A stretch of DNA of 64,000 nt, taken from contig DATKUL010000002.1 in assembly GCA_035530615.1 (NCBI GenBank), positions 310,001-374,000 of the forward strand, read 5' to 3'. Each line of letters opens with the position of its first letter. Position 1 is the stretch's first letter. Both the position numbers and the translations under genes were made by a program. The notes under the pieces were generated by a model that did not search any database, was not told where the DNA came from, and saw only the letters and a program-made list of their open reading frames with translations. Below are positions 11,320 through 51,900 of the stretch, in pieces. The DNA comes from Candidatus Paceibacterota bacterium (GTDB taxonomy: Bacteria; Actinomycetota; Actinomycetes; Nanopelagicales; Nanopelagicaceae).

Positions 11320-11970
11320 TTACAACACTGAGTGACGAATAGCGGAAATAATGACCAATGTACCAAGTGCAATCATGACGACACCACCAGCGCTGCGCAG
11401 CTTAATGAGGCGGCTGGCATCCGTTGCTAACCACTGTCTTGCGGTTCCAGCAAGCAATCCCCATGATCCATCTGATATCAATGCTAGAGTCGCAAAGAGT
11501 GCTCCCAGGAGGAGTAATTGGGCGGTGATGTGGCCGCGTTCGCGATCGATGAACTGTGGCAAGACGGCGGCAAAGAAGACCAATGCCTTGGGGTTGAGTA
11601 CTCCTACCCAGAATCCATCACGCATAGACGCAAAAGGCGCTGGCTGCATGCCGGTCTTCTGTGTCATGTCGGTGGCATGTATTTTGCGGTGCCGAATTGC
11701 ATCCACGCCCAGATAAACCAGGTAAGCCCCGCCACCCCATTGGATGATTGAGTACGCGAGATTCGAACGCTGTAGAACTGGGCCAAGTCCTAACGCGACA
11801 AATATTGAAAGAACGTATGCCCCAGCAGCATTGCCCATTACGGTGAGTACCGCTGTCTTGCGCCCCCAGGCAATGGCTCTGGCAATAACAAAGAGGACGC
11901 TGGGGCCGGGAGCAATAATGATAAGTATGGACGCCAAAAGGTATTCCCAAATTCGCGTCGGCACGATCAT
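11320..11970 (-). CDS. LysE/RhtB-family amino-acid exporter
   Basis: A 216-residue membrane protein with six hydrophobic segments and the family signature APGPSVLFVIARAIAWGRKTAVLTVMGNAAGAY near the N-terminus, plus NPKALVFFAAVLPQFID in the middle. It likely exports an amino acid or related small metabolite. It leads the probable lysE-MFS operon; the nested hairpin array at 12001-12188 lies about 30 bases upstream of its ATG and could affect its expression. Confidence 0.88.
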   Translation of the reverse strand: MIVPTRIWEYLLASILIIIAPGPSVLFVIARAIAWGRKTAVLTVMGNAAGAYVLSIFVALGLGPVLQRSNLAYSIIQWGGGAYLVYLGVDAIRHRKIHATDMTQKTGMQPAPFASMRDGFWVGVLNPKALVFFAAVLPQFIDRERGHITAQLLLLGALFATLALISDGSWGLLAGTARQWLATDASRLIKLRSAGGVVMIALGTLVIISAIRHSVL

Positions 11971-12000: not shown

Positions 12001-12188
12001 GGCCGATCATAAACGGCGATTAAAAGAAAGAGCACAATCGCCTTTCTTATGATCGGCCGACAGCTTGAGCAGCCAGCATAAGAAACAGAAGACAAGTCAT
12101 AGAGTTGAGACGAGGCGATTGTGCTCTTTCTTTTAATCGCCGGTCTCAACTCTATGACTTGTCGAGCGCACTCTTTCTTTTAATCGCC
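12001..12188. repeat. Nested inverted-repeat array (two composite hairpins plus a third partial unit)
   Basis: Three copies of a unit containing TAAAAGAAAGAG flanked by GGCGATT/AATCGCC occur here. Copy A is 12015-12042 and copy A' is 12114-12141, a perfect 28-base reverse complement of A; the third is partial, sharing 18 bases at 12171-12188 with 12124-12141. Copy A is enclosed by a perfect 12-base inverted repeat (12001-12012 with 12047-12058). A' is enclosed by a different perfect 21-base inverted repeat (12091-12111 with 12143-12163). Each unit can also fold on itself with a 7-base stem. It fills the space between the permease stop and the LysE start. Confidence 0.9.
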
Positions 12189-12227
12189 GTTCTTGAGCCA
12201 CACGCTATGGAACCCTCAGGCGCGTGA

Positions 12228-13493
12228 TTACTCCGCTGATGTGCCGCGTGATTTTGCGATTGAATTGAGAACACGGTATCCAACGACGGCAACGAGAGTT
12301 GCATTGATGATGCCGTTGAAGGTGTAGTTGCCACGGGACCACGACATATCAGAAATTCCGATAATCAAGGCGGATGCAGCGATGATGAGATTGGTTGAAT
12401 CTGCAAAGTTAACTTTTCCCTCGATCCAGATCCTTGCACCGAGAACCCCGATCATTCCGAAGAGTGCCACGCCGACTCCACCGAGCGCGCCGACAGGGGT
12501 TGCACTCAAGACGGCACCGAATTTTGGTGAAAGGGAGAGCACGATGGCTCCCATGCCAGCGATCCAGTAAGCCGCAGTTGAGTAGACGCGAGTGGCGGCC
12601 ATGACTCCTATGTTTTCTGCGTAAGTTGTTGTACCAGAACCACCACCTGCACCAGCTAGCGTTGTTGCAACGCCGTCAGCGAAAAGAGCCATGCCCATCT
12701 GGTCGTCAAGATTCTTTCCAGTCATTGCTGCCACTGCCTTAACGTGGCCGACGTTCTCCGCGATGAGAACCAGGACAACAGGCAAGAAGAGGATTACCGC
12801 ACTGATATTGAAAGTCGGACTTGTGAAATGTGGGGCGGCAACCCATTTAGCAGCCTTAATACCGTCGGTGTTGACGTCGCCCATTAAGAAGGCAATGACA
12901 TAGCCAAGGACCAATCCGACGAAGATGCTAATTCGATTGAGGAACCCGCGCGAGAATGCAGAAACTAGGCCGATGGCGGCGAGAGTAATAATGCCAATTG
13001 CTGGTCCTTTGGTGAAGTTGCCTTTCGCGGCTCCTGCCAGATTCAGACCGATGACCATAACGATGGTGCCGGTCACGATTGGTGGCAACATCCAGTTGAT
13101 CCAGCCAATGCCAGCGGCTCTGACGATAAGACCAATCATTGCCAAAATGATTCCAGTGACGACTACGCCTCCAAGTGCATCAGACATCCCACCCTTGGAG
13201 ACTGCCGCTGCGATGGGAGCGAGGAACGCAAAGGAAGAGCCTAAGTAACTAGGGACTCTATTTTTCGTAATAACGAGGAAGAGCAATGTTCCGATTCCAG
13301 AGAAGAAAAGGGTGGTCGTAGGGGGCAATCCGGTAATTATCGGTACAAGAAATGTGGCTCCAAACATTGCAGCGATGTGTTGCAGTCCAACGCCGGTGGT
13401 CCTTGGCCAACTTAAACGTTCGTCGGTGGATACGACTTCGCCAGCGCCAATCGTTTTGCCAGATCCATGCAGTTTCCAAGAGAGTAGGGACAT
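12228..13493 (-). CDS. uraA: Uracil/xanthine permease, NCS2 family
   Basis: A 421-residue transporter with about 14 hydrophobic segments. Family marks include GLQHIAAMFGATFLVPIITGLPP, SYLGSSFAFLAPI, a transport-domain stretch LIAENVGHVKAVAAMTGKNLDDQMGMALFADGVATTLAGAGGGSGTTTYAENIGVMAATRVYS and the late GGVGVALFGMIGVLG. Such proteins import uracil or xanthine with protons. ATG 13493 was chosen: it is preceded by AAGGAAG at good spacing, and the longer in-frame start at 13562 adds non-family residues. Confidence 0.9.
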   Translation of the reverse strand: MSLLSWKLHGSGKTIGAGEVVSTDERLSWPRTTGVGLQHIAAMFGATFLVPIITGLPPTTTLFFSGIGTLLFLVITKNRVPSYLGSSFAFLAPIAAAVSKGGMSDALGGVVVTGIILAMIGLIVRAAGIGWINWMLPPIVTGTIVMVIGLNLAGAAKGNFTKGPAIGIITLAAIGLVSAFSRGFLNRISIFVGLVLGYVIAFLMGDVNTDGIKAAKWVAAPHFTSPTFNISAVILFLPVVLVLIAENVGHVKAVAAMTGKNLDDQMGMALFADGVATTLAGAGGGSGTTTYAENIGVMAATRVYSTAAYWIAGMGAIVLSLSPKFGAVLSATPVGALGGVGVALFGMIGVLGARIWIEGKVNFADSTNLIIAASALIIGISDMSWSRGNYTFNGIINATLVAVVGYRVLNSIAKSRGTSAE

Positions 13494-13640
13494 CTGTGCT
13501 TCCTTCCGCGGTGGTGGCGCAGATCGCGCCTGAGGAGAGATGGGTCGGGGAAGACGGTCCAAGGGTAAGGTGCACTTCTCGCTAGATTGAGCGTAAAGCC
13601 CGCGCCACGCCGCCGACCCGAGTCAGACTTGCATCCCTGC

Positions 13641-40837: not shown

Positions 40838-40985
40838 TGTTCTCTCCTCGCGAGTATGAGCGATGAGCCCGGAGTCACTAGGAAGAGTCGGAACGGCAGA
40901 TAGGGGAGGGCAAGCCTGTCCTCGCGGAGCCACCGTCGGCGAACCCTCCCTCGAGGTCACAGACACACCGAATGAGTGATTCGGT

Positions 40986-41160
40986 CAGGTGGCAGGTCTT
41001 CGGACTTTCGGGCATGTACTCGAAAAACTTCGAGCATTTTCTACTAGCCGTCGCTTCCCAGAATTGAATTTCCAGTGCTATAGACGGACTTCGTTCCCAA
41101 TTACCGCTGCGGGGCAGTCCCAGATTCTCACCGGGTTCCCTCTTACGACGACACCACTGT
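40986..41160 (-). ncRNA. Cobalamin (AdoCbl) riboswitch upstream of nrdAB
   Basis: Read on the minus strand, the region has the conserved cobalamin-aptamer blocks in order: GAGGGAACCCGGTGAGAAT then CTGGGACTGCCCCGCAGCGG (41103-41141), and near the 3' end AGTCCGAAGACCTGCC, the B12-box partner (around 40990-41007). A 7-base-stem hairpin (ACCGAAT/ATTCGGT, 40967-40985) follows directly and may belong to the expression platform. About 130 bases separate it from the nrdA ribosome site. In Streptomyces such a switch shuts off class Ia reductase when B12 is present, so that the B12-dependent class II enzyme is used instead. Confidence 0.9.
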
Positions 41161-41305
41161 TGTAATGTCGAACCATCTGTGTGCAGAGACTAGCCACGAA
41201 ATTTCAATTATCTCAGGAGGCATTAGCAAAACGGCGTGTCGTTAAGTTGTAGGGCTGTTATTTGAATAGTGAGAGGTTGAAGTAGAGAGACAACCGCGGA
41301 AAAAA

Positions 41306-51846: not shown

Positions 51847-51900
51847 AAATGGCGGCAAGTGTGGCTAGTCTTTTGGATTCACCCACACTTCCCGCCATTT
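51847..51900. terminator. Long terminator hairpin beside glnA-end repeat 1
   Basis: An 18-base stem with one unpaired base (arms starting AAATGGCGG and ending CCGCCATTT, inner AAGTGTGG/CCACACTT). It ends the left 79-residue gene on the plus strand and follows the glnA-end repeat at 51924 on the minus strand. Confidence 0.8.

Follow-up and report, generated by a model that had tools for sequence, protein, structure and literature searches.

REPs usually occur in more than 100 copies per genome and are accompanied by a RAYT transposase, and they have been proposed to act in transcription termination (PMC2817692). For the upkeep of palindromes, template switching predicts that whole arms change with pairing retained and without G-T intermediates (PMC8794818). 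Repeated bacterial hairpins usually keep the sequence of their stems, whereas the hairpins described here keep their loop and rewrite their stems. They were encountered in a stretch of 64,000 nucleotides (GCA_035530615.1, contig DATKUL010000002.1, positions 310,001-374,000), which is referred to below as the window.

RESULTS

Nested hairpins at the window site

A repeat search delineated, at positions 12001-12196, two perfect nested hairpins holding an identical 30-bp unit in opposite directions (Table 1). The unit is itself a hairpin, composed of a 7-bp inner stem (GGCGATT/AATCGCC) and a 14-nt loop, AAAAGAAAGAGCAC. The segment GGCGATTAAAAGAAAGAG is present three times in the window with 0 mismatches, compared with 0.07 in shuffles even when 3 mismatches were allowed, and the folding z-scores of the site relative to shuffles are about -12 on either strand, as DNA or as RNA. 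The third unit is a decayed or truncated copy, and a half-unit remnant resembling it is present at the same boundary of a relative (G005). What a sequence-only reading had described at this site was confirmed: the two composite hairpins have perfect outer stems of 12 and 21 bases with arms at 100% identity, a partial third unit follows, and the region lies on the 5' side of the exporter gene. The shared unit in opposite directions was confirmed as an inverted copy of 100% identity, its length being 30 rather than 28 bases. Since both flanking genes are located on the minus strand, the hairpin region corresponds to the 3' side of the permease gene and the 5' side of the exporter gene. The names of these two genes and of the genes at the other loci are presumptive. 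The permease neighbor is likewise present in G005 and G017, and an orthologue of the LysE-type gene was found in 21 of 21 genus genomes.

Elsewhere in the window, positions 51847-51900 form a nested palindrome of approximately 18 pairs with an 18-nt loop containing TCTTTT, to which the models gave no match, and a cobalamin riboswitch is located at positions 40974-41192 on the minus strand (Rfam RF00174, 102.5 bits).

Table 1. Features of the window site and gene boundaries carrying units (window positions unless a contig is named; gene names are presumptive)
Feature	Position	Strand	Description
Nested hairpin 1	12001..12058	+	Outer arms 12001-12012/12047-12058 (12 nt, 100%); covariance model R1, 68.8 bits
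Hairpin 1 inner stem	12015-12021/12036-12042	+	Loop AAAAGAAAGAGCAC at 12022-12035
Nested hairpin 2, opposite direction	12091..12163	-	Outer arms 12091-12111/12143-12163 (21 bp, perfect); covariance model R1, 65 bits
Hairpin 2 inner stem	12114-12120/12135-12141	-	Same 14-nt loop AAAAGAAAGAGCAC at 12121-12134 on the minus strand
30-nt unit common to both hairpins	12014-12043/12113-12142	inverted	100% identity; repeat search
Third, partial unit	12171..12196	-	Left half GGCGATTAAAAGAAAGAG only
Uracil/xanthine-type permease gene	12228..13562	-	Upstream neighbor; hairpins come after its stop codon
LysE-type exporter gene	11320..11970	-	Downstream neighbor
Locus A			Permease to exporter; window; the same inverted pair also in G017; single unit plus half-unit remnant in G005
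Locus B			3' of groEL and a DUF3027-type gene, 5' of a cold-shock gene; class 1
Locus C			Between divergent DedA and H+-PPase genes; class 1
Locus D			Between divergent panB and nadE; class 1
Locus E			Before tadA, own genome; class 1
Locus F	G000:C3:381473-381821 (own genome)		Directly after the pntB stop codon; class 2/3 and variants

Recurrence within the genus

A pattern search followed by covariance model R1 was applied to 21 genus genomes and to 130 genomes from elsewhere in the family, a set comprising one genome per species and many drafts; the models that retrieved further copies included the outer stems. Class-1 units turned up in 8 of the 21 genus genomes, distributed over five loci, and in none of the 130 other family genomes. 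With all loop classes considered, six loci, i.e., five gene boundaries besides that of the window, carried units in 12 of the 21 genus genomes, and one related locus was found in a second genus. The unit thus recurs both in its own genome and in relatives, which excludes the refuting outcome named beforehand, namely, that it occurs nowhere else. Copy number was low everywhere, with 1 to 4 loci bearing units detected in a genome. The genome containing the window (G000 in the comparison) gave 3 class-1 and 4 class-2/3 covariance model hits at three loci, and a two-model scan of 400 kb of it revealed no further units. On the gene tree, one half of the genus bears units throughout and the other half bears them in a single species pair (G009 and G019), which entails several losses or gains.

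Several candidates were discarded. A pattern match in G017 (G017:C80) was dropped because it falls within a coding gene. Exact 18-mer matches from unrelated phyla were set aside; among those listed, the right half of the inner stem is absent. Plasmid homologues were rejected; viral homologues were limited to two matches in one search, without flanking stems, with none in the other searches. Long complementary targets of class 1 outside the units, at no more than 2 mismatches in 18, were not found in the own genome.

The own genome features other palindromes as well. At L201:1779-1844 (contig C2), a 24-bp perfect palindrome encloses the loop CGGCGACTCTCCTTGCTA, the start of which resembles half the unit. 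On contig C3, near an acetyltransferase-like gene, two hairpins approximately 650 bp apart (L148:2497-2562 and L148:3146-3209) have the common outer stem TTAGGGTTGGGCTC/GAGCCCAACCCTRA around differing inner sequences, i.e., they display the reverse pattern, with the inner part varied and the outer part kept.

Architecture and loop classes

All copies follow a common plan. The outer stem varies, a small and asymmetric internal loop frequently places one C opposite TC or TT, the inner stem differs in sequence yet remains paired, and a loop of approximately 14 nt contains (G)AAAAG. At locus A of three species (G013, G015, and G018), the nested hairpin is of class 2, its loop reading CTGAAAAGATTACG on the opposite strand. 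This loop, unchanged or almost so, recurs in an array or a single unit at locus F of the own genome, G005, G013, and G018. Class 3, GGCGACTG-AAAAGATAACTACA-CAGTCGCC, occurs in tandem close to the same pntB/pirin genes in the second genus (G109); the locus F arrays of G000 and G005 contain it as well. Further variants were found at locus F of G002, G003, G004, G006, G017 (weakly paired), and G019 (degenerate), a few of the loop variants at this locus having been spotted by eye in downstream sequences and then parsed rather than retrieved by a blind search. Locus F together with its flank is conserved across a deep split (G000 versus G013/G018). Directly downstream of pntB (L148, 6847-8253, minus strand), the conserved 3' segment CCCCCGCGRYCGCAAGGTCGCTA forms a GCAA-loop hairpin with changing G-T pairs; it precedes the unit in G000, G013, and G018.

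Evolution of stems and loop

The letters of the loop are conserved, with the stems altered on both sides. Specifically, 36 units contain 21 distinct inner 5' arms and 36 distinct outer arms, and the loop AAAAGAAAGAGCAC is identical between species with unrelated outer stems and LysE proteins of about 70% identity. Unit and outer stems evolve differently across relatives, which supports the differing histories that the sequence-only reading had suspected. Covariation scores reached 0.422 for alignment A1 (0.191 when shuffled) and 0.519 for alignment A2 (0.179 when shuffled), values attained by 0 of 500 shuffles in either case. In the slid controls, A2 scored no higher than 0.12, but A1 shifted by -1 nearly equaled its unshifted score (0.413), owing to a bulge whose place in the stems varies.

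The parsed stem pairs comprised 577 Watson-Crick, 3 G-T, and 1 A-C pairs, compared with 10% G-T in tRNAs of the same genome, the G-T count being a lower bound since the parse stops a stem at long mismatches, with the contrast to tRNAs still large. Ordinary selection for RNA pairing, taken alone, is difficult to reconcile with so few G-T pairs. At locus A of G013, G015, and G018, the core is retained and the distal arms differ yet pair, and at locus F of G002 and G004, a related loop is located inside unrelated outer arms. The near absence of G-T pairs, combined with the replacement of whole arms, fits an upkeep of the stems by template switching; as this process leaves the loop untouched, loop conservation needs selection or frequent exchange between copies. 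The right arm retained in G010 at locus B was rejected as proof of arm copying, since it could equally result from G010 having lost the unit.

Transcription polarity

At co-directional loci, 15 of 16 lineages had outer stems in which T outnumbers A on the 3' side of the transcript; the pooled counts over 29 units were T 229 and A 111 (baseline, 408 and 353), the significance of which is overstated by the relatedness of the species. Of the inner units, 18 pointed along the gene and 11 in the opposite direction, without significant bias. The outer stem, T-rich on its 3' side, is thus oriented by transcription, whereas the inner unit faces either way, which would be unexpected if the loop were read in RNA of a single polarity. 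A terminator role does not suit loci C and D, which separate divergent genes and at which no such signal would be expected. At the window site, no classical terminator was called by the scan, so that the description of the site as not being a plain terminator held in this respect; it requires amendment inasmuch as the outer stems display terminator polarity at gene ends and several relatives lacking units show plain terminator-like palindromes at locus A, as does G010 at locus F.

DISCUSSION

The common architecture at six loci of the genus and at the locus of the second genus, the covariation, the invariant loop, and the T-rich polarity support a terminator-type family. Judging from sequence, we tentatively favor, at slightly less than even confidence, the view that the hairpins form an undescribed family of terminator-type gene-boundary hairpins with a conserved, presumably partner-bound inner loop. 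The outer stem, by its position and T-rich polarity, would mainly serve as the 3'-end hairpin of the preceding gene, and the conserved inner hairpin would be seated in its loop. The (G)AAAAG-containing loop of about 14 nt would be under selection, presumably being bound by a protein or another putative partner, whereas the stems would change rapidly with pairing retained, most likely via template switching in the palindrome together with selection for pairing. Copies do arise occasionally, both at other boundaries and as tandem or inverted duplicates, and the mechanism involves no Y1 transposase, none being present in the genus genomes. A bolder version, which we consider doubtful, is that a putative nucleic-acid-binding factor reads (G)AAAAG loops in either orientation, that the loop classes form a small network linking the pntAB, uracil permease, groEL/csp, H+-PPase, and nadE boundaries, and that units move between terminator loops.

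A small, non-autonomous mobile hairpin of about 35 nt, which a putative enzyme would insert in either direction into loops of terminators or palindromes already present, is conceivable but rather unlikely. It would suit the patchy presence of the units, their occurrence in either orientation and as tandem, inverted, or half copies, the identical loops at different loci of one genome, and the difference at one site between the sisters G002, with a plain terminator, and G004, in which a related terminator encloses a unit. Simple copying, however, does not give locus-specific inner stems that keep their pairing around identical loops, and the unit is constant while outer stems differ between sister species. 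Because the latter retain the unit and replace the outer stem (G013, G015, and G018 at locus A; G002 and G004 at locus F), insertion into ready-made palindromes becomes less likely, and the simple insertion into two such palindromes offered by the sequence-only reading was not upheld. Moreover, no target duplication was seen, unit-bearing loci are few, and a Y1 transposase/RAYT (PF01797) was detected in 0 of 21 genus genomes, with 5 of 14 control genomes positive; a REP- or IS200-type origin, for which the sequence-only reading had advised a search for a transposase, is not supported, given the same low copy number and absent transposase.

The conservation of loop and internal loop, the covarying stems, and the conserved 3' untranslated segment at pntB would be in accordance with a structured regulatory RNA in 5' or 3' untranslated regions, bound at these loops by a protein or small molecule. 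This we regard as unlikely, since orientation is mixed, the sole unit being antisense at locus A of G013, G015, and G018 and at locus F of G002 and G006, G-U pairs are almost absent, and Rfam gave no match. Still less probable, indeed quite improbable, is a functionless neutral quasi-palindrome kept perfect by template switching only: the Watson-Crick-only stems and the whole arms by which close relatives differ, with pairing intact, agree with this known mechanism (PMC8794818), but the constancy of the loop letters over long divergence and the T-rich polarity of the outer stems are left unexplained.

A kept loop within rewritten stems separates what is read from what merely holds shape, offers a natural test of template switching as palindrome upkeep, and suggests a putative loop-binding partner in little-studied small-genome actinomycetes.

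Comparison with known systems

A CRISPR, already discounted from the sequence, was rejected given the inverted pair, the unequal spacing, and a sole direct-repeat family of 2 copies. The variable outer arms display by eye no constant boxes, whereas an integron attC site would have R boxes (GTTRRRY) at the base of its hairpin and go with an integrase gene. Rfam 15 gave no match at the hairpins above the gathering score, with only sub-threshold miRNA-type hits. In their place after stop codons and their T-rich 3' arm, the hairpins resemble intrinsic terminators; unlike them, they contain a conserved inner hairpin and loop, have long loops, and occur also between divergent genes. With REP/BIME elements they share palindromic units in alternating orientation between genes; they are, however, low-copy and without a RAYT transposase, and membership was rejected as both copy number and transposase speak against it. 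Template-switch maintained hairpins (Monttinen and Loytynoja 2022, PMC8794818) account for perfect stems and simultaneous changes of both arms, although they represent a mutation mechanism rather than an element family and leave the conserved loop unexplained. Mitochondrial repetitive hairpin-forming elements (PMC2800124) are likewise scattered in intergenic DNA and divergent between close relatives, whereas the present ones are bacterial, with one nested hairpin of fixed loop and no recent copy burst seen. Repeated stem-loop (SLS) families (Cozzuto et al. 2008, PMC2267715) are similarly short, mostly intergenic, dispersed, and defined by structure; in the hairpins described here, by contrast, conservation lies in the loop instead of the stems, the copy number is small, and the outer stem is unique to each copy.
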